Positions 33,100-41,254 of a DNA stretch of 41,254 bases are shown here, piece after piece (position 1 is the first letter of the stretch; every line of letters begins with the position of its first letter). Source of the DNA: Verrucomicrobiales bacterium (GTDB lineage Bacteria > Verrucomicrobiota > Verrucomicrobiia > Limisphaerales > UBA9464); NCBI GenBank assembly GCA_027489875.1, contig JAIXZE010000224.1:1-41254 (forward strand), given 5' to 3'. The position numbers were made by a program, and so were the translations under genes. The notes under the pieces are model-generated. The model was not told the DNA's origin. It ran no database searches and worked only from the letters and a program-made list of their open reading frames with translations.

Positions 33100-33624
33100 A
33101 TGAGGCTCCATCTCCGAACCCACGGATTCATCGATTGGCCAGCCAGCGTCGGATGCCTCGCTGTCGTCGGAGCAATCGCCTTCTCCAGCAACATCGCCGC
33201 AGACGCTCTACAGGTGGCCCGCTGGGAAGCAGCCCTCGGAGTGACCACGCTCGTCGCGGCCATCAGCGCGGCTTCCCCACCCGCCCGTTCCACCTTCGTC
33301 CGCGGCATCCTCGGTTGCTTGTCTCCCCTTCTGCGCGTCCGTTCAGCCGACGCGACGGTCATCGACTCCGAAGCGGAGCGCGATCGGATCCACCGGGGGC
33401 CCGAAAAAAACTTGGGCGACGTCGATCTCTCGCCTCGTGCCCGATACGTCGTGGAGGTGGAACTCGAGGATGGCTCCAGCCTCAGCTGCGTCCTCCCCCT
33501 CCAGGATTGGGCCCGACTCCGGGTCGGAGCGACCGCGCGACTCGTCTGGCAAGGGATCTGGTTGCGCTCGATCCTCCCCATCCCGAGTCACGAAGCGGTG
33601 CCTTGGACCGGGGAGAAGTGTTGA
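33100..33624 (+). CDS. Small membrane protein of unknown function
   Basis: Not recognised. It has 174 residues. Two hydrophobic segments are at about 13-33 and 45-60 (ASVGCLAVVGAIAFSSNIAA; LGVTTLVAAISAA). A soluble C-terminal region follows (RARYVVEVELEDGSSLSCVL, then DWARLRVGATARLVWQGIWL), which reads as a small beta domain. An antisense frame of similar length exists but has no coherent topology. It starts 69 nt after tRNA-Val. Confidence 0.5.
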   Translation: MRLHLRTHGFIDWPASVGCLAVVGAIAFSSNIAADALQVARWEAALGVTTLVAAISAASPPARSTFVRGILGCLSPLLRVRSADATVIDSEAERDRIHRGPEKNLGDVDLSPRARYVVEVELEDGSSLSCVLPLQDWARLRVGATARLVWQGIWLRSILPIPSHEAVPWTGEKC

Positions 33625-33665
33625 GAATTCCTGTCCGCTGGGAAAACCGGCATTGCCGTGTTGCG

Positions 33666-33693
33666 CGAAAACCGAAAACCGGGAACCAAAACC
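33666..33693 (+). repeat. Heptanucleotide tandem array (CGAAAAC type)
   Basis: Four consecutive 7-mers: CGAAAAC, CGAAAAC, CGGGAAC, CAAAACC. It has the same period as the CCAGTTG arrays downstream. Confidence 0.55.
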
Positions 33694-33756
33694 CGGCCAC
33701 TGGATAATTCGTCTGGGTCCGCCTTGTGAACGAGTCCGTGGGTAGCTGCGTTCATC

Positions 33757-33783
33757 TGCGTCGCGTGAGGGCACACGGCCTAC
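33757..33783 (-). repeat. REP-like palindrome, inverted orientation
   Basis: On the minus strand: GTAG, GCCGTGTG, CCC, then CACGCGAC. Foot and length are the same as the unit at 23340, but the stem is slightly mismatched. It lies upstream of a heptamer array and tRNA-Tyr. Confidence 0.65.
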
Positions 33784-33842
33784 AGTTCCAGGAATCTGAA
33801 AATCCTGCTTGAGGACAGCGCCGCCTCCTCAAGGGCGACGCG

Positions 33843-33881
33843 GGAGACTGGAATCTGGGAACTGGCGACTGGAAACTCTGG
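33843..33881 (+). repeat. Heptanucleotide array (AATCTGG/GAACTGG type)
   Basis: Consecutive 7-mers AATCTGG, GAACTGG and CGACTGG, flanked by GACTGG and AAACTCTGG. It is the right-half type of the inverted arrays at 37381 and 38315, here without a clear inverted partner. Confidence 0.6.
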
Positions 33882-33888
33882 AAGAAGA

Positions 33889-33976
33889 TGGTGGTAGGAG
33901 AAGGATTCGAACCTTCGAAGGGCGTTAGCCCGGCAGATTTACAGTCTGCTCCGATTGACCACTCCGGCATCCTACC
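33889..33976 (-). tRNA. tRNA-Tyr (anticodon GTA), CCA encoded
   Basis: Type II tRNA on the minus strand. Acceptor arms GGTAGGA and TCCTACC, anticodon stem GCAGA/TCTGC with loop CTGTAAA (GTA), a long variable arm (CGGGCTAACGCCC), T-arm GAAGGTTCGAATCCTTC, discriminator A and encoded CCA at 33889-33891. Confidence 0.95.
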
Positions 33977-34091
33977 ACGGATGCGCCCGGTAACGGGCGG
34001 GCGGAAATGAATGCAAAACACCGCCCACCGGCTCAAGGGCATTTTCAATATTTCTCACTTCCCGGATACATCGCCTCCTTCCCTCCGCACC

Positions 34092-34931
34092 TCAGCGTTG
34101 GCATCCGCGACAGAAGAAACTGCTCCGTCCGCCCTGCACCGACCGCTGGATGACTCCGCCACAGCGGGAACACGGTTGTCCGGCGCGGTCGTACACACGG
34201 AAGCGTTCCTCGACACCGGATCCGGTGCCCGATTCCCCGTAGTAGAAAAGTCCGCCGGCCCCCGCGGTGAAGTCGGGTTGCACTCGCAACCCGAGTGCGA
34301 TGGCCTCCTCGAGGACGCTGCGGACAGCCGTCCACAGCCGCCCGCATTCGTCCGGCTTCAATCGACGACCCGGTCGCGTGGGCAGGATCTCCGCCTGCCA
34401 CAACGCCTCGCTGGCGTAGATGTTTCCCACGCCAGCCACCACCGATTGATCGAGAAGCAATTCCTTGATGGACCGCCCGGAACCGGCAATCCGCTGACCG
34501 AACACCAGCGGTGTCCACGCCGGATCCCAGGGTTCGGGGCCCATCCCGCCCAGGACGGAGACGTCCGCGTGGAAGCGTCCAAACTGGCGTGGATCCTCGA
34601 AGACAAAACGGCCCTGATCCAAACCCAGCACTACGGCAGCGTGACGCGGCAACTCCCGAACGCCATCATCGACGAACATGCGTCCGGTCATGCCCAGATG
34701 CCCGATGATCTGACCGTCCGTTCCGGAGGGATGCGGCCCGTTGAAGAGCAGGTGTTTTCCCCGACGCCCCACCGCGTGCACCGTCATGTCCACCAACAGC
34801 GCGCGCAACGCATCGGTTCCCGTGGGCCGCACCAAACGGGGACGAAGGACCTCCACGGAAAGCACACGCCGCCCCCGCAACACCCCGTCCAGATGGCGGC
34901 GCAGGACCTCGACTTCGGGCAACTCAGGCAT
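34092..34931 (-). CDS. mutM: Formamidopyrimidine-DNA glycosylase
   Basis: Base-excision repair enzyme removing 8-oxoguanine and formamidopyrimidines, with AP-lyase activity. It has 279 residues. The N-terminus is MPELPEVEVLRRHLDGVL, with Pro2 and Glu3 catalytic. The lysine loop (GRRGKHLLF), HLGMTGRM, FEDPRQFGRF and the helix-two-turn-helix VVAGVGNIYASEALW are present. The C-terminal zinc finger is CSRCGG ... FFCRGCQR, intact. The open frame extends upstream to 35162 through the MITE-like element, but PELPEVE fixes the start at 34931. It is divergent from pta. Confidence 0.97.
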   Translation of the reverse strand: MPELPEVEVLRRHLDGVLRGRRVLSVEVLRPRLVRPTGTDALRALLVDMTVHAVGRRGKHLLFNGPHPSGTDGQIIGHLGMTGRMFVDDGVRELPRHAAVVLGLDQGRFVFEDPRQFGRFHADVSVLGGMGPEPWDPAWTPLVFGQRIAGSGRSIKELLLDQSVVAGVGNIYASEALWQAEILPTRPGRRLKPDECGRLWTAVRSVLEEAIALGLRVQPDFTAGAGGLFYYGESGTGSGVEERFRVYDRAGQPCSRCGGVIQRSVQGGRSSFFCRGCQR

Positions 34932-34999
34932 TTCGGGAGCCTCGCCTCGCAATCCGTTTTCGCCAACCAAGCCGTTCCCATCTTCCGGGTTCCGGGGGG

Positions 35000-35122
35000 A
35001 TCTTGACACTGCCCACTTTTGGAAGGAATTCGGGGCGGCGATGCCCTCATCGCGTTGGGAATGGCTTTGGAACGGCGACGAGGACGTCGCCTCCCCGTTC
35101 CTCACGGGGGCAGTGTCCAGAT
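35000..35122. mobile_element. MITE-like element with 17-bp terminal inverted repeats
   Basis: Left end ATCTTGACACTGCCCAC (35000-35016) pairs with the right end 35106-35122, whose complement is ATCTGGACACTGCCCCC; 15 of 17 match, 10 of them contiguous. The centre is the hairpin GGCGACG-AGGA-CGTCGCC at 35074-35091. There is no coding capacity. No clear target-site duplication was seen. It lies in the divergent mutM-pta gap, where it could affect both promoters. Confidence 0.7.
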
Positions 35123-35190
35123 ACGGCCCCGGGTTTCCCTGCCCTGACTGCCCGCTGGCCACCCGGCCAGGATCCGGTTAGCCTGACCCC

Positions 35191-36246
35191 ATGCGATTCA
35201 TTGGCGGCGTCATCGAGAAGCTCCAGCGGCATCCGAAGCGCATCGTCTTTCCCGAGGGAACCGAACCGCGCGTGCTCCAGGCCGCCCGGCAGTTCCACTC
35301 CCTGCGTCTGGGAGTACCCATCCTGCTGGGCGAACGCTCCGCGGTGAAGGAAGCGGCGGCCGCACTCAACGTCTCCCTCGAAGGCATCCGGATCATCAAT
35401 CCGTCCGAAAGCCCCGACCTCGACTCCTTCGTGAAGCGGTTCGAAATGATCCGCCGCTCGAAGGGCATCAAGGAACAGGAAGCGCGCGAAGCCATGACCA
35501 AGCCGAACTACTTCGGCGCGATGATGGTTGGGATGCGTCAGGCCGACGGCCTCATCTCCGGCACCAACGAGATTTCCGGATCCGTCCTGCGCCCGCTGTT
35601 CCAGATCATCAAGGTCGCCCCGCGCACGACGACCGCGTCCTCCTGCATGGTGATGGAGGTCGAGGACTCCCGGTTCGGTGATCGCGGCACGCTGTTCCTC
35701 GGTGATTGCGGCGTCATCCCGGATCCCACGGTCGAACAGCTCGCGGACATCGGCATCTCCACCGCGCGTCTCGCGCGCCAGATGCTGGGTTCCAAGCCGC
35801 GCGTGGCGTTCCTGTCCTTCTCGACCCACGGCAGTTCCTCCCAAGCCTCGGTCCTCAAGGTCAAGGCGGCCACCGCCCTCGCGCAACAGAAGGCGGCCGA
35901 GGAATTCTTCGAGGCCGACTTCGACGGCGAACTCCAGGTCGACGCCGCCCTGATCCCCGAGATCGCCGCCCGGAAGCTGCCCGATTCCAAGGTCGCCGGA
36001 CGCGCCAACGTGCTGATCTTCCCCGACCTCAATTCGGGCAACATTGCCTCCAAGCTGATCCAGCACATCGCCCGCGCGAACGCCTACGGCCAGATCCTCC
36101 TCGGCCTCGATCGCCCCGCGGCCGACGTCTCCCGCGGCTCCAACGCCCACGACATCCTCGGTGTCGCGGCCATCGTGGGCCTCCAATCCATCGAGTACCA
36201 GAAGCTCTACCCCGGTGCCGGCGAACACCTGCCCGGCGAACTCTGA
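35191..36246 (+). CDS. pta: Phosphate acetyltransferase (catalytic domain only)
   Basis: Converts acetyl-CoA and phosphate to acetyl phosphate, or the reverse. It has 351 residues, one PTA_PTB domain. Readable family blocks are HPKRIVFPEGTEPRVLQAA, ANYFGAMMVG-like PNYFGAMMVGMRQADGLISG, RVAFLSFSTHGSS and RANVLIFPDLNSGNIASKL, then GQILLGLDRPAADVSRG. The P-loop and DRTGG domains found at the N-terminus of E. coli Pta are absent but are encoded by the next gene, 31 nt downstream. No ackA is in the window. Phosphate butyryltransferase activity cannot be excluded. Confidence 0.9.
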   Translation: MRFIGGVIEKLQRHPKRIVFPEGTEPRVLQAARQFHSLRLGVPILLGERSAVKEAAAALNVSLEGIRIINPSESPDLDSFVKRFEMIRRSKGIKEQEAREAMTKPNYFGAMMVGMRQADGLISGTNEISGSVLRPLFQIIKVAPRTTTASSCMVMEVEDSRFGDRGTLFLGDCGVIPDPTVEQLADIGISTARLARQMLGSKPRVAFLSFSTHGSSSQASVLKVKAATALAQQKAAEEFFEADFDGELQVDAALIPEIAARKLPDSKVAGRANVLIFPDLNSGNIASKLIQHIARANAYGQILLGLDRPAADVSRGSNAHDILGVAAIVGLQSIEYQKLYPGAGEHLPGEL

Positions 36247-36277
36247 TCTGCTGCCCACCTTGAGTGCGAACCCCGAC

Positions 36278-37375
36278 ATGCTCCTCAACGAAGTCACCCC
36301 CCGGGTTTTTGTCGCTGCCACCCGGCAGAACGACGGCAAGACCACCACCTCCCTCGGGCTCCTCGCCGCCCTCGAACGCCGTTATGGCCGCGTCGGGTAC
36401 ATCAAGCCCGTCGGCCAACGGTTCGTGGAAATCGACGAGCAGAAGATCGACGAGGACTCGGTCCTCATGAACCACGTCTTTCGCCTGAACTGTCCGCTCG
36501 TGGACATGTCGCCGATCGCCGTCGAGCCGGATTTCACCCGCCGCTACCTGCAGAACGCCAACCTCGATTCGCTGATCAAGCGCATCCACAAGGCCTTTGA
36601 TCGCGTGGCGTGGGAGAAGCAGTTCGTGCTCATCGAAGGCACCGGCCACGCCGGCGTGGGTTCCGTCTTCGACCTTTCCAACGCGGCCGTGGCCAAGCTG
36701 CTCGGCTCGAAGGTGGTGATCGTTTCCCGCGGTGGCATCGGACTCCCCATCGACGAAGTCGCCATGAACCGCGCCCTCTTCGAGGCCGAGGGCGTGGAGG
36801 TCATTGGCGTCATCCTGAACAAGGTCCTGCCCGAGAAGCTCGAGTACATCACCGACTTCGCCCGACGCGGTCTCAAGCGCAAGGGCCTCGAACTGCTCGG
36901 GGTGATCCCGCACCAACCCATCCTCTCCAAGCCCACCCTCGACCTGATCCGCGAGGAACTGAAGGCCGAGGTCCTCGCCGGGGCCGGACGCATCCACAAC
37001 ATCGTCCAACGCGTGGTGATCGGGGCCATGTCGCCGGCGAATGTCGGGAAGCTCCTCCAACCCGACACGCTCCTCATCTGTCCTGCCGACCGGGAAGATA
37101 CCCTCGCTGCCGCCGCCGAAACCTCCATCCGCGATGAAGGCCGTCTCGCCGGCATCATCCTCTCCGACGACATCCACCCAACGCCCGCCGCCCGTCGTCT
37201 CGTCGAGCGTTTCAACTGCCCCGTGCTCTTCTCGCCGGAGGACAGTTACACCGTCGCCTCGACCGTCCACGACCTGACCGTCAAGACACGGCCGGACGAC
37301 ACCCAGAAGATCCGACTGATCCAGGATCTCATCGCCCGCCACGTGAACCTGGATCGGATCCTGAAGGCGTTGTAA
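36278..37375 (+). CDS. P-loop / DRTGG-domain protein (Pta N-terminal-like)
   Basis: A protein of 365 residues. The N-terminal BioD/CobQ-like P-loop domain (1-215) has VFVAATRQNDGKTTTSLGLL, IEGTGHAGVG and VVIVSRGGIGLPIDE. A DRTGG domain follows at about 230-340 (GAGRIHNIVQRVVIGAMSP ... ADREDTLAAAAE ... GIILSDDIHPTPAA). This order matches the regulatory N-terminal half of E. coli Pta, which senses metabolites. As a stand-alone gene behind pta it probably supplies that module in trans. A TTG six codons earlier (36260) is an alternative start. Confidence 0.82.
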   Translation: MLLNEVTPRVFVAATRQNDGKTTTSLGLLAALERRYGRVGYIKPVGQRFVEIDEQKIDEDSVLMNHVFRLNCPLVDMSPIAVEPDFTRRYLQNANLDSLIKRIHKAFDRVAWEKQFVLIEGTGHAGVGSVFDLSNAAVAKLLGSKVVIVSRGGIGLPIDEVAMNRALFEAEGVEVIGVILNKVLPEKLEYITDFARRGLKRKGLELLGVIPHQPILSKPTLDLIREELKAEVLAGAGRIHNIVQRVVIGAMSPANVGKLLQPDTLLICPADREDTLAAAAETSIRDEGRLAGIILSDDIHPTPAARRLVERFNCPVLFSPEDSYTVASTVHDLTVKTRPDDTQKIRLIQDLIARHVNLDRILKAL

Positions 37376-37380
37376 GGGGA

Positions 37381-37437
37381 GAGTTCCCAGTTGCCAGTTG
37401 CCAGTTGCCAGAACTGGGAACTGGCGACTGGCAACTC
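37381..37437. repeat. Inverted heptanucleotide array (CCAGTTG)n / (CAACTGG)n
   Basis: Left half: three CCAGTTG units after GAGTTC. Right half: TGGGAAC, TGGCGAC, TGGCAAC, then TCC. The two halves are inverted complements and would form a hairpin of more than 20 bp with a few mismatches. It lies 5 nt after the stop of the DRTGG gene and ends just before a REP pair. Confidence 0.75.
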
Positions 37438-37443
37438 CGCTTT

Positions 37444-37507
37444 GTAGGCCGCGTGCCCCCACGCGGCGAACTCCCTGAGCCTCGCCGGGTGAGGGCACCC
37501 GGCCTTC
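37444..37507. repeat. BIME-like inverted pair of REP units
   Basis: Plus unit 37444-37470 (GTAG, GCCGCGTG, CCC, CACGCGGC). The minus unit at 37481-37507 reads GAAG, GCCGGGTG, CCC, TCACCCGGC on the other strand. The two are homologous in opposite orientation with a 10-nt spacer. Heptamer arrays lie on both sides. Confidence 0.75.
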
Positions 37508-37512
37508 ACTCG

Positions 37513-37561
37513 GAGTTCCCGGTTCCCAGACTCCAGAACTGGGAACTGGTCTCTGGCAACT
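37513..37561. repeat. Inverted heptanucleotide array
   Basis: GAGTTCCCGGTTCCCAG and ACTCCAG on the left mirror CTGGGAAC, TGGTCTC and TGGCAACTC on the right, giving an imperfect long hairpin. It ends 6 nt from the stop of engB, so it lies in that gene's 3' region. Confidence 0.7.
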
Positions 37562-37567
37562 CCACCC

Positions 37568-38239
37568 TCACCACGGCGTATCGCGGGGGATCGGCGTCCG
37601 TGCCTGGACACGCTTGGCCTCGGGTTCGAGGACCGAGTCGATCAGGGCGAGCAGGGCGTTCCTCCCCTGCCCTTCAACGGACGAGCAGACCATCACCTCC
37701 GGCGGCGTATCGCTCAGTTGGAGCAGGTGGGCCTTCACCGCATCAATCGTCTTCTGCAACGCTGTCTGGCTGACCTTGTCCGCCTTGGTGAACACCAGCA
37801 CGAACGGCACCCCGTTCTCGATCAACCAATCAAGGAACTCCAGGTCGTTGCCCTGCGGCGGCAGCGAACCGTCCAGAAGGACGAACACGCATTGCAGGTT
37901 CGAACGTTCCTTCAGGTAATCCAGCACCGCCTTGCTGAACCGCCCACGCTCCTTCCGCTGCACACGGGCGTACCCGTACCCGGGCATGTCAACCAACCGC
38001 CAGCGGTTGTTGATCGTGAAGAAATTCAGGTGCTTCGTATGCCCCGGCGTGGGCGAAACACGCGCCAGATCCCGCTTCCCCACCAGCAGGTTCAGCAGCG
38101 ACGACTTGCCCACGTTCGAGCGCCCCGCGAAGGCAAACTCAGGCAGGTCCTCTTCCGGACAGGACTCCAGATCCGGCGCACTTCCGGTAAAGACAGCAGT
38201 CGAGGTGTTCATCAGTTCAAGCCGTACGTCCCCATTCAT
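37568..38239 (-). CDS. engB: Ribosome biogenesis GTP-binding protein EngB/YsxC
   Basis: Essential GTPase for 50S subunit maturation, about 223 residues. G1 is GRSNVGKSS at 39-47, with the family lead-in PEFAFAG. Next come SPTPGHTKHLNFF (switch I), G3 DMPGYGYARV at 84-93, G4 FTKADKVS and G5 SSVEGQGR. ATG 38239 was taken; 38212 (MNTSTAVFTG) is equally plausible. The C-terminus (QARTPIPRDTPW) is slightly extended. It is flanked on both sides by repeat clusters (37381-37561 and 38297-38455). Confidence 0.94.
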   Translation of the reverse strand: MNGDVRLELMNTSTAVFTGSAPDLESCPEEDLPEFAFAGRSNVGKSSLLNLLVGKRDLARVSPTPGHTKHLNFFTINNRWRLVDMPGYGYARVQRKERGRFSKAVLDYLKERSNLQCVFVLLDGSLPPQGNDLEFLDWLIENGVPFVLVFTKADKVSQTALQKTIDAVKAHLLQLSDTPPEVMVCSSVEGQGRNALLALIDSVLEPEAKRVQARTPIPRDTPW

Positions 38240-38296
38240 GCCAGAACCCCGCCCCCGACGCCTCCCCAATTCTCAACGATCTCCGATCGCCCCACT

Positions 38297-38318
38297 GGAG
38301 GCCGCGTACCCGGGGGAG
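38297..38318 (+). repeat. Degenerate REP-like unit
   Basis: GGAG followed by GCCGCGTACCCGGGG. It resembles a REP unit whose right arm has decayed. It sits directly ahead of the heptamer array at 38315. Confidence 0.4.
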
Positions 38319-38383
38319 TTCCCAGTCGCCAGTCTCCAGTTCCCAGAAATCTGGAATCTGGGAACTGGCATCTGGCAACTCCC
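38315..38383. repeat. Longest inverted heptanucleotide array
   Basis: Left half units TTCCCAG, TCGCCAG, TCTCCAG, TTCCCAG; right half AATCTGG, GAACTGG, CATCTGG, CAACTCC. The halves are inverted complements and would form a hairpin of about 30 bp. It is followed 3 nt later by a REP pair. Confidence 0.75.
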
Positions 38384-38386
38384 GTT

Positions 38387-38450
38387 GTAGGCCGCGTGCC
38401 CCCACGCGGCGGACTCCCTCAGCCTCGCCGGGTGAGGGCACCCGGCCTTC
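38387..38450. repeat. BIME-like inverted pair of REP units
   Basis: Nearly identical to 37444-37507, including the 10-nt spacer (one or two differences). GTAG unit at 38387-38413, inverted unit at 38424-38450. The protein-gene-free stretch 38240-38648 contains this repeat cluster; from 38471 to 38648 I see nothing recognisable. Confidence 0.75.
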
Positions 38451-38648
38451 AAGCAGAGTTCCCAGCGAACCCACGGATCCCGCCAAAGGAGGATGTGCCC
38501 CCCGTCCCGACACGGTTGACCGGGACTGTCGAGTTGCGGAGCCTCCGCCTCACCGGATCCGGATGGACCCGGCGGCGGGCCGCGAGCGCGAAACCGTGTG
38601 TGCGCTCCGGCCCGCCGTTTGTTTGGTCATCGCGGGGCGTTTCCCCAC

Positions 38649-39374
38649 TCATTTCCCGGCCCGCCGCACCGTCACCTCGGGCCGATACTGGATCCGCACC
38701 AGCAGGTCTCCCCGACCTCCCCGCGGCCGTGGCAATCCCTCCCCGGTGACCCGCACGATTTCCCCGCGTCCCACCCCCTTGGGAATCTCTACCCGAACCG
38801 ATCCGCCCCCCAATCCCCGCAACAGTTCCGATCCACCCTTCGCCGCGCGATCCGCCGAAATCCGAAGGTCGCACCGCAAATCCGAACCCCGCGCCTTGAA
38901 TTGGAAATCGGCCCCGGCCTTCACCCGCACGAGAACATGTCCACCGCGGAACGCACCCTCGCGCGGAACGCGGAACCGGGCCCCCGGAGCCGTCCCCGCC
39001 GGAACCTCGCAGGTGTACGTCTCCGGTCCGTCGGGGTTCGCCGGATCGTTTACCCGGATTTCCAAACGCGTTCCCTTGAGGAAGTCCTCCAACCGCAGCG
39101 TGATGTCCTGCGCCACGTTCTTCTCGATCCGTCCTGCCCGGACGCGAACCGAGGCACGCTCGGCGGCCGCCAACTCCCGATCGTACGCCGCACGCGCCTC
39201 GGGATCGCTCAACACCTCATGGGCCGCATTCAGCATCCGGGTCCGCAGCACCGACTCCTCCGACCCGCCATTGACATCCGGATGATGCTGCTTGGCCAGC
39301 ATCCGGTACGCCGTCCGGATCTGGGCTTCCGTACACCGCCGATGCAACCCCAGCGTCTGGTAATGGTCCGTCAT
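38649..39374 (-). CDS. DnaJ-class co-chaperone, CbpA-like
   Basis: Hsp70 co-chaperone, 241 residues. The J domain (2-68) has HYQTLGLHRRCTEAQIRTAY and the HPD motif in AKQHHPDVNGGS. There is no Gly/Phe region and no zinc finger. The C-terminal part (80-235) is the substrate-binding double barrel: QDITLRLEDFLKGTRLEIRV, then VPAGTAPGARFRVP, then ADFQFKARGSDLRCDLRIS, then VEIPKGVGRGEIVRVTGEGLPRP. This is the type II (CbpA) layout. AGGAA lies just upstream of the start at 39374. No dnaK is nearby. Confidence 0.92.
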   Translation of the reverse strand: MTDHYQTLGLHRRCTEAQIRTAYRMLAKQHHPDVNGGSEESVLRTRMLNAAHEVLSDPEARAAYDRELAAAERASVRVRAGRIEKNVAQDITLRLEDFLKGTRLEIRVNDPANPDGPETYTCEVPAGTAPGARFRVPREGAFRGGHVLVRVKAGADFQFKARGSDLRCDLRISADRAAKGGSELLRGLGGGSVRVEIPKGVGRGEIVRVTGEGLPRPRGGRGDLLVRIQYRPEVTVRRAGK

Positions 39375-39475
39375 TTCCTCGTGCACGCGACGAAGGGTGA
39401 AGGTTTTCGCTTCAGCTTTGAATCTTCCCTTGCGGAAACTGGCGACCCTTTCCCCAGCCTCCTGGCTACTCACCT

Positions 39476-39542
39476 GTAGACCGCGTGCCCCCACGCGGCG
39501 AAATCCATAAACCCCGCCAGGTGCAGTCCCCCCCGGCCTTCA
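39476..39542. repeat. BIME-like pair, right unit degenerate
   Basis: The left unit has GTAG, ACCGCGTG, CCC, CACGCGGC. The right, inverted unit (CCCGCCAGGTG ... CCCCGGCCTTCAC) has lost part of its stem. It lies in the divergent gap between the dnaJ-like gene and the membrane-protein pair. Confidence 0.65.
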
Positions 39543-39545
39543 CAC

Positions 39546-39562
39546 GGAGTTCCCAGTTTCCA
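39546..39562 (+). repeat. Half heptanucleotide array
   Basis: GGAGTTCCCAGTTTCCA matches the left half of the arrays at 37513 and 38315. The right half is missing. Confidence 0.5.
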
Positions 39563-39634
39563 GAAGCCATCTCCTACAACACCGTTTTGAACACATCTCG
39601 CGGACGCCTGTCTGGTTACTTTGTACAGCAAAGC

Positions 39635-40381
39635 ATGGAACCCACCCTTCCCGCCTCGACACCGCTGCCGACCCGGAATCATCCGGATCACCGGCTGATC
39701 CCGGCACTGCTGCGGGGGGATTCGGCCGTGCTCGCTCCCTGGGTCCTGAACCCCGCACTGCCGTTCTGGGCCGCATTGCTGGCAATGGTCGTCCTCGGTG
39801 CGGGTGCGTACGGCGTGGCCGTTGGATCCTGGCGCGGAGGATGGCAACCGATGTTCACCGGTCTGAAGCTCCCGGGAATCCTGCTGCTGACCGCCGCCGG
39901 CAACGCCGGACTCAACGCCGCACTCGCGCCATTGCTGGGATTGAACCTCCACTTCCGCCAATCCCTCGCCGCCGTCCTAGCCAGCTTTGCCATCAGCGCC
40001 GTGATCCTCGGCGCCGCCGCCCCGGTCGTCGCGTTCCAACTCTTCAACCTGCCCGGCATCGATGCCGACTGGTCCGCGCGCGGCCGGGCCTTCGACACCG
40101 TCCAGGCGACGCAGGTCCTGGTCATCGCGTTTGCGGGCATCGCAGGAACCGTCCGGTTGCTCCAACTGCTGGAAACCCTGGCCGGCTCAAGAGCCGTGGC
40201 CAATCGGGTGCTGGTCGGATGGCTCGCGGGGAACTTCCTTCTCGGAACCCAGATCACCTGGATCCTGCGACCGTACTTCGGGTCCCACGCGCTCCCCGTG
40301 GAGTTCCTGCGCGAACACCCACTCCAGGGAAACTTCTTCGAGACGATCTGGCACTCGACCCAGGAAATGCTCTTTCGCTGA
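39635..40381 (+). CDS. Polytopic membrane protein of unknown function (Yip1-like layout), paralogue 1
   Basis: A protein of 248 residues. A proline-rich cytoplasmic N-terminus (MEPTLPASTPLPTRNHPDH) is followed by six hydrophobic segments, including FWAALLAMVVLGAGAYGVAV, GILLLTAAGNAGLNAALAPL, AVLASFAISAVILGAAAPVV and VLVGWLAGNFLLGTQITWIL. The topology and the first-helix motif GAxxYGVxVGS recur in the next gene, so the two are paralogues. It resembles Yip1-type membrane domains but no signature is decisive. Alternative starts upstream run through repeat DNA and were rejected. Confidence 0.68.
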   Translation: MEPTLPASTPLPTRNHPDHRLIPALLRGDSAVLAPWVLNPALPFWAALLAMVVLGAGAYGVAVGSWRGGWQPMFTGLKLPGILLLTAAGNAGLNAALAPLLGLNLHFRQSLAAVLASFAISAVILGAAAPVVAFQLFNLPGIDADWSARGRAFDTVQATQVLVIAFAGIAGTVRLLQLLETLAGSRAVANRVLVGWLAGNFLLGTQITWILRPYFGSHALPVEFLREHPLQGNFFETIWHSTQEMLFR

Positions 40382-40400
40382 ACCACGTACCGCCACACCC

Positions 40401-41126
40401 ATGAATCCTGAACCGCCCCCGATTCCTACGCCTGCTGCACGACACCCTTCGATCACGGCGCCCCCCGAAATCCCACCGCGGAATCTGATCGGACAACTCC
40501 TGCGGGCTCCTCGGGTCCTGGTGGATCCCGCCGGGCCCGGTGTCGGATTGCCGGCACTGCTGGGACTGACGTTGCTGGGAGCGCTGATCTACGGAGTGGT
40601 CGTGGGCTCGTTTGCACGGGGCGACATGCTCTGGATCGTTCCGCTCAAGCTCGCCGGCGGAATGCTCCTCGCGGGCCTGATCTGCACCCCCAGCCTGTAC
40701 GTCCTGTCGGTCATGGCGGGCGCGGATCTCCGACCGCGGCAACTGCTGATCGTGCTCGGCGGGATCCTTTCGCTGACCATGCTCCTGCTGCTCAGTTTCG
40801 CGCCGGTGGCCTGGGTGTTCTCGGAATCGTCGTCCTCGGTTGGCTTCGTCGGATTCCTGCACTGGCTGCTGTGGTTGATCTCGGTGAGCTTCGGGTTGCG
40901 ACTGGGCCGGACATGCCTGCACGCGCTCGGCGCGGCGGCACCGGGCACCTTCATCGTCTGGTCCGGGATCTTCATCCTGGTGACGCTCCAGATGGCCACC
41001 GCCCTGCGTCCGTGGCTGGGAAAATCCGACCTCGTCTTCGCCAAGGAAAAGATCTCCTTCCTCGGTCATTGGAGCGATGCGATCTCCGAGAAGGCCGCCA
41101 AACCGTCCACGCGGCCGACACCTTGA
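40401..41126 (+). CDS. Polytopic membrane protein of unknown function, paralogue 2
   Basis: A protein of 241 residues starting 19 nt after paralogue 1, so co-transcribed. A Pro-rich N-terminus (MNPEPPPIPTPAARHPSI) precedes six hydrophobic segments, for example GLTLLGALIYGVVVGSFARG, MLLAGLICTPSLYVLSVMAG, LLIVLGGILSLTMLLLLSFA and GTFIVWSGIFILVTLQMATA. Shared features with paralogue 1 are GALIYGVVVGS against GAGAYGVAVGS, the PLKL/GLKL element before helix 2 and RPWLG/RPYFG near the end. Function unknown. Confidence 0.68.
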   Translation: MNPEPPPIPTPAARHPSITAPPEIPPRNLIGQLLRAPRVLVDPAGPGVGLPALLGLTLLGALIYGVVVGSFARGDMLWIVPLKLAGGMLLAGLICTPSLYVLSVMAGADLRPRQLLIVLGGILSLTMLLLLSFAPVAWVFSESSSSVGFVGFLHWLLWLISVSFGLRLGRTCLHALGAAAPGTFIVWSGIFILVTLQMATALRPWLGKSDLVFAKEKISFLGHWSDAISEKAAKPSTRPTP

Positions 41127-41235
41127 GACGTGTCCCTGGGGTAGTTGTCGCACGCGGAGAACCGCCCTCTACGGAAAGGGTGTCTTCCAGCAATGAACTG
41201 GCGGTCCACAGTGCGTCTACGGTCTTCAATGCCTG

Positions 41236-41254
41236 CGCCGGGTGAGGGCACCCG
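41236..41254 (-). repeat. REP-like unit cut by the window end
   Basis: CGCCGGGTGAGGGCACCCG matches the minus-oriented units at 37481 and 38424. The foot would lie outside the window. Confidence 0.65.

Follow-up and report, generated by a model that had tools for sequence, protein, structure and literature searches.

Heptad arrays with a CCAG core near GTAG-type REP palindromes in the intergenic DNA of a Verrucomicrobiales bacterium

What fills the gaps between genes in this stretch of DNA from an uncultured Verrucomicrobiales bacterium, where short arrays with a 7-nt period lie beside palindromes: a simple tandem repeat, or one module of a larger, dispersed element? The window, by which we mean the whole stretch of 41,254 nucleotides, is an entire contig (C10) of a draft genome (G000; 6.2 Mb in 451 contigs, 89% complete). 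A preliminary description, made from the letters alone, had proposed inverted heptad arrays which flank REP pairs to form one composite, and had likened them to the STRR repeats of cyanobacteria. The term STRR is reportedly due to Mazel in 1990.

Array anatomy in the window and the genome

The three inverted arrays and two half arrays first described are all present (Table 1). The convergent gap 37376-37567, between the DRTGG gene and engB, is filled by an array hairpin, a REP pair and a second array hairpin; the two outermost caps lie 4-5 nt from the stop codons. That the inverted halves would fold as hairpins was also borne out: the predicted RNA folds have energies of -44.2 kcal/mol for 37381-37438 (z -8.0), -25.2 for 37513-37563 (z -2.7) and -44.3 for the pair at 38316-38381 (z -7.2). 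The region around a single array (33765-33885) folds no better than shuffles (z -0.9).

The different 7-mer described at 33666, CGAAAAC, is unsupported as an array family: it comes down to two clean copies and degenerate ones, and exact GGTT-N3-GGTT-N3-GGTT chains of this CGAAAAC/GGTTTTC family occur 3 times in eight sample groups, 33666 included. Separately, a repeat of ~137 nt (34994-35130), which matches both strands and recurs at at least about 30 further places in G000 with 85-91% identity, sits inside a long Fpg reading frame, upstream of the Pfam domain.

Table 1. Arrays and REP1 units of the window.
Feature	Position	Strand	Remark
REP1 unit	33760..33782	-	2 mismatches; 65 nt from the 33848..33878 array
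Array, 4 units and cap GAGTTT	33848..33878	-	10 nt downstream of tRNA-Tyr 3' end (33889-33976, minus)
Array, cap GAGTTC and 4 CCAG units	37381..37411	+	5 nt past AAA_26/DRTGG gene stop codon (37373-37375)
Inverted partner array, 3 CCAG units and cap GGAGTTG	37414..37438	-	2 nt from the 37381..37411 array
REP1 unit	37445..37467	+	GTAG end towards array
REP1 unit, inverted partner of 37445..37467	37484..37506	-	3 mismatches; GTAG/GAAG ends of the pair outside
Degenerate array (CCGG, CCAG, CCAG), cap GAGTTC	37513..37536	+	
Inverted array, 3 units and cap GGAGTTG	37539..37563	-	Cap 4 nt from engB stop (37568-37570, minus)
Array, cap and 4 units	38316..38346	+	
Inverted partner array, 4 units and cap	38351..38381	-	
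REP1 unit	38388..38410	+	14 nt from its GGCC to the array's first CCAG
REP1 unit, inverted partner of 38388..38410	38427..38449	-	3 mismatches to pattern
Cap and one CCAG, decayed or minimal array	38456..38465	+	At REP1 end
REP1 unit	39477..39499	+	1 mismatch
Half array, cap GAGTTC and only 2 units	39547..39563	+	

These arrays belong to a genome-wide family, in which a cap GAGTTN is followed by CCAG-W-Y-N at 7-nt steps; the cap is mostly GGAGTTC or GGAGTTG, and the array closes on CCAG, with AA next in 26/80. The genome-wide search which the preliminary description had proposed gave 220 (partly overlapping) matches to the exact pattern CCAGTNN x3, CCAGTNNCCAGTNNCCAG, and 0 to the reversed control pattern; in the window GAGTTCCCAGTNNCCAG, at up to 3 mismatches, has 19 matches against a shuffle mean of 1.3. 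Most counts below come from 736 kb of G000, made up of 367 kb taken by contig number (the unbiased sample) and a picked 369 kb (the window, and stretches mostly selected since arrays were listed in them). Most array counts rest on exact chains of at least three CCAGs, which the REP1- and cap-anchored table described below does not; a looser detector (10/12 core bases) admitted too much and was set aside. By this measure the sample holds 82 arrays, 80 of them with 3-4 units, one with 5 and one with 9, which occur singly or as inverted pairs (12 pairs listed).

In the unbiased sample, 7 is the period with the highest count among periods 4-21 (18 arrays; a single shuffled copy has 0). There are 0-1 arrays at each of the periods 4, 5, 10, 11 and 13, but 12 at period 8 and 10 at period 14; counts at multiples of three are elevated, as expected from coding sequence. 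When arrays were detected by self-similarity alone and only afterwards sorted by best core, 60/69 fitted CCAG. Over their 195 units the information content is 1.7-1.9 bits at each of the first four positions, 1.05 at position 5 (T, in some cases A) and 1.09 at position 6 (T, in some cases C), but only 0.27 at position 7.

Descent of the arrays by copying is unsupported, with 11 arrays in identical groups against 12.3 expected from independent draws, so that spreading by copying can only be inferred; local tandem array copies do exist, for example at L090:13953-14121.

Some variants stand beside the main family. Adjacent units which both have A at position 5 are almost missing from G000 (1 against 7.7 expected). 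Arrays with an 8-nt step (CGCAGAGA, CTTTGCGT), inverted pairs included (L117:1157/1304, L123:2588/2647, L188:952/997), occur in G000 and also in G001, a relative with no CCAGTNN x3 match. Another heptad core, CAAG/GAAG, whose cap is likewise of GGAGT type, is found in G000 (L124:1227, L139:2845) and in the sister species G006 (L148:18810, L149:14343, L163:20), where some such arrays adjoin a further palindrome, GGCGAGTGTCCTCACGAGCC; self-similarity detection counts 6 of them in G000 and 13 in G006. We do not claim this palindrome (REP3) as a partner, since by pattern it lies within 150 nt of just 3/11 G006 CAAG arrays, despite the impression by eye.

Junctions with REP palindromes and conservation of the core

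The palindrome of the window, REP1, is a GTAG-type REP with a GTAG end, a GC-rich stem-loop and a high copy number (117 REP1-like cores in 736 kb); its unit, TAGGCCGCGTGCCCNCACGCGGC, has 8 window matches at up to 3 mismatches and 0 in shuffles. A REP1 core lies within 150 nt of 22/26 arrays in the unbiased sample and of 33/56 in the picked one, whereas one is that near to only 11.9% of random intergenic positions and 2.6% of all positions. Array plus REP pair plus array is thus a genuine composite here, although not a universal one: in G006 only 3/23 arrays have REP1 near.

The two repeats often meet at a preferred spacing. The GTAG end of REP1 faces the cap at 13-16 nt (from the GGCC of GTAGGCC to the first CCAG) in 19/82 arrays, and at exactly 14 in 13 of these. 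With labels assigned in the order REP1, gene 3' end, gene 5' end, REP2 (a different palindrome, described below) and none, 20 further caps meet a gene 3' end within 20 nt, one meets a gene 5' end and three meet REP2, but 39/82 have none of these at the junction. The module orders show alternating REP orientation plus other motifs, as BIMEs do.

The arrays are also placed with respect to genes. Gene calls from a simple codon-usage script, by which 83% of bases are coding, place all 82 between genes (allowing up to 12 nt of overlap), with a called gene on both sides for 73, and it is the cap which approaches the gene: it lies within 11 nt of the facing gene 3' end in 18/42 cases, against 0/41 for the inner end (P 7e-7).

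The conservation of CCAG does not depend on having selected for it. We anchored sequences on REP1 cores with [GCA]AGTT within 22 nt on the GTAG side, and so avoided choosing them by CCAG; this cap-like motif is found at 35/117 cores against ~6 expected, with offset 8 in 20. Among the 30 anchored sequences tabulated (offsets 4-12), each base of the first CCAG is retained in 26-29, of the second in 24-27, of the third in 22-26 and of the fourth in 20-22. The triplets between are freer, with 0.06-0.89 bits per position and some preference for T or A and for T.

We propose that each array is a module within a BIME-like repeat dispersed between genes, in which CCAG heptads would be read by a putative factor, and we put the probability of this reading at about one half. 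The module consists of a cap GAGTTN and three or four CCAGs at 7-nt steps, single or as an inverted pair, and its cap end often keeps a nearly constant spacing to the GTAG end of a REP or lies just past a stop codon or tRNA end. Retention of CCAG may reflect a sequence-specific factor that reads it at each 7-nt step, and the composite could spread or persist as DNA through this reading. On the whole the composite seems to be a repeat of two parts that is recognised by something, not the usual stuttering kind of tandem repeat.

Slippage, RNA 3' ends and quadruplexes as alternatives

Could the arrays instead be ordinary heptanucleotide SSRs, produced by replication slippage, later decayed, and gathered with REPs in intergenic DNA by chance? 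The period-7 peak described above fits such an origin, and homogeneous heptad arrays do exist in relatives: G003 has long ones, and many of the outside-genus matches listed among the 50/387 phylum genomes with CCAGTNN x3 are homogeneous, such as (CCAGTCA)n. The 9-unit G000 array (L096:182) itself looks slipped. However, the unit number is 3 or 4 in 80/82 arrays, and neighbouring units are less alike than chance: compared with within-position shuffles, adjacent units in 80 G000 arrays agree in the whole triplet 9 times against 14.6 expected (P 0.05), at position 7 29 times against 39.5 (P 0.02), at position 6 57 against 65.4 (P 0.02) and at position 5 68 against 81.8 (P 0.0003), an effect which is absent in 23 G006 arrays, where adjacent-unit likeness is neither in excess nor in deficit. 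Phase-specific conservation, seen even in sequences not picked by CCAG, and the cap and junction preferences also argue against slippage as the sole cause, which we reject, even though relatives do have long homogeneous arrays; decayed SSRs are an unlikely account of the family. The likeness to STRRs holds for the period and core only. Near-identical neighbours in widely varying number, as in heptanucleotide SSRs and STRRs, are not found here: the units are few, heterogeneous and anti-correlated, the opposite of what slippage gives.

Another possibility is that the array hairpin and REP pair act in RNA, to end or protect the transcripts of flanking genes. This would suit the strong folds of the three inverted pairs in the window, and also the arrays of codirectional gaps whose cap is no more than 20 nt from a gene: 10 of these 11 are sense and 1 antisense. 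Arrays favour convergent gaps (21/73 arrays against 41/274 gaps of at least 60 nt, P 0.009) and avoid divergent ones (11/73 against 75/274, P 0.03), same-gap arrays not being independent in either count, and in the part of Rehm et al. (PMC4692102) that we draw on, heptamers lie up to 50 bp from stop codons on the sense strand. Yet across all codirectional gaps 21 arrays are sense and 20 antisense, which argues against a strand-specific RNA role for arrays at large, and an inverted partner within 70 nt is labelled for just 20/82. Nor does base pairing appear to maintain the hairpins: with caps aligned, the arms of the 12 inverted pairs agree at position 7 in 8/33 cases against 11.6 expected (positions 5 and 6 being near expectation), and with loops aligned in 9/33 against 10.5 in shuffled pairs. 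Since neighbouring units are more unlike than shuffles and arms agree at position 7 no better than shuffled ones, slippage or pairing alone is insufficient. An Rfam scan of 33300-41254 found no family above its gathering score except tRNA (mir-1537 and cold-seep-1 were far below threshold), and the core is missing or nearly so (0-3 matches) in 6/8 sister species, which would be odd for a basic cellular signal. An RNA 3'-end role is doubtful and has no support for the arrays at large, but it is conceivable for the codirectional caps within 20 nt of a gene.

G-quadruplex heptamers in the Xanthomonas or Nostoc style are highly improbable: although GGNNACT is the Nostoc GGGGACT core with two freed bases (from the portion of PMC4692102 used here) and four-unit arrays carry four GG tracts on that strand, only 1/82 arrays has four tracts of G3 or more, and G-tracts would not need the conserved AG of CCAG. 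Overall, a site that is recognised accords better with the data than do slippage, pairing or a quadruplex.

Relatives, a possible reader and known repeats

Relatives retrieved via an array-adjacent protein are by title nearly all Verrucomicrobia MAGs, some labelled Pedosphaera, Limisphaerales or, oddly, Akkermansia muciniphila. Among 39 relatives, CCAGTNN x3 matches are numerous in G006 (98) and G002 (56). The remaining six members of the genus divide evenly between those with no match and those with 1-3, and G018 has 20. The reversed pattern (a TGACCNN array) matches in G018 (141), G003 (81) and G017 (51), and in 120 kb sampled from G018 no TGACCNN arrays were seen. As an aside, the heptad repeats of G003 are long and block-homogeneous, with several cores (L175:16033, L182:3115, L182:3518, L182:11527), while G000 arrays are short and mixed.

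The palindromic partner changes in the sister species G006. There REP2 lies on the cap side at 10-18 nt in 12/23 arrays, and within 150 nt of 14/23 compared with 3.3% of random positions; we defined the REP2 pattern with the G006 contexts already in view, and ten of the 20 G006 stretches were selected for arrays or matches. There is much turnover. In a comparison of seven loci with G006, the array is conserved at two (tRNA-Tyr, 33848-33878, and L086:8862), reduced to a remnant at one (L094:19620) and absent from four (after the DRTGG gene, after engB, and at L093:3851 and L093:12465). At an eighth locus (L094:16019), compared with G002, both flanks are kept and a REP-like pair is there, with no array. 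For L097, neither G006 nor G002 gave a usable orthologous gene at the arrays. In part these comparisons draw on portions of L224-L226, L228-L230 and L232-L235 (L234 read in both directions), out of 20 such stretches, and on L244 and L245, out of six, of which L245 stops short of the gene's stop codon and is uninformative. The two orthologous arrays have four units each in both species, one unit being mutated in G006, and differ at 1/32 core bases against 8/18 triplet bases (P 0.0006), a contrast which overstates core conservation since only recognisable arrays enter the count.

What might read the CCAG heptads? The natural candidate, suggested by the GTAG ends, would be a REP-type transposase acting on single-stranded DNA. 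Among nine genus genomes, 8 have Y1 transposase loci, and 0/22 such loci have REP1 on both sides, in drafts whose contigs break at repeats, so no RAYT link was retained. A single REP1 lies at one locus (L223), and arrays lie within 1.5 kb per side of two (L104, L207). It is possible, though we think it improbable, that the array serves for recognition in a mobile or maintained repeat of two halves, in which one factor would read CCAG every 7 nt while the hairpin half has been swapped between lineages (REP1 to REP2 in the sister species), with related genomes using CAAG/GAAG cores or an 8-nt step.

The separate parts of this composite have counterparts elsewhere. GTAG families are reported in Verrucomicrobia, in O. 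terrae (Di Nocera et al. 2013, PMC3733652; Nunvar et al. 2010, PMC2817692), and, to the extent that the sections of these papers used here describe them, GTAG REPs and BIMEs share with ours the GTAG end, the GC-rich stem-loop, pairs with GTAG outside and frequent contact with stop codons; they differ in that REP1 is often joined at a nearly constant distance to a heptad array and that no flanking transposase gene was found beside it. The heptameric repeats GGGAATC of Xanthomonas and GGGGA(C/T)T of Nostoc (Rehm et al. 2015, PMC4692102, in part) have the 7-nt period, a related core, an intergenic place near stop codons and an inverted example, but our arrays are few-unit, heterogeneous, mostly without G3 quadruplex potential, and REP-coupled. 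Inversion, which had been proposed as distinctive, is real here, but is known from Xanthomonas and, according to the portion of PMC3488679 cited, from the P6b stem-loop of the Nostoc tRNA-Leu intron, where degenerate heptads likewise pair as a hairpin, unlike ours at one locus inside an intron and with variable copy number. TAACTGA heptamers of Beggiatoaceae, Cyanobacteria and Bacteroidetes (MacGregor 2015, PMC4679880) are also mostly intergenic 7-nt direct repeats in short sets (2-6 copies in BOGUAY), but their units are exact and in BOGUAY mostly lie immediately 5' of start codons, and they have no REP partner in the parts of that account drawn on here; scattered bacterial heptamer repeats are there attributed to polymerase slippage (Mrazek 2007, as cited in PMC4679880). 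Thus heptamer arrays, inverted heptamers and REP mosaics are each known, and in titles and abstracts of an open-access library we found no account of heptad arrays joined to REPs.

With a conserved core, preferred cap and junctions, and a palindrome which depends on the species, a specific binding factor becomes testable, and two classes of intergenic repeat which are usually handled apart become linked.
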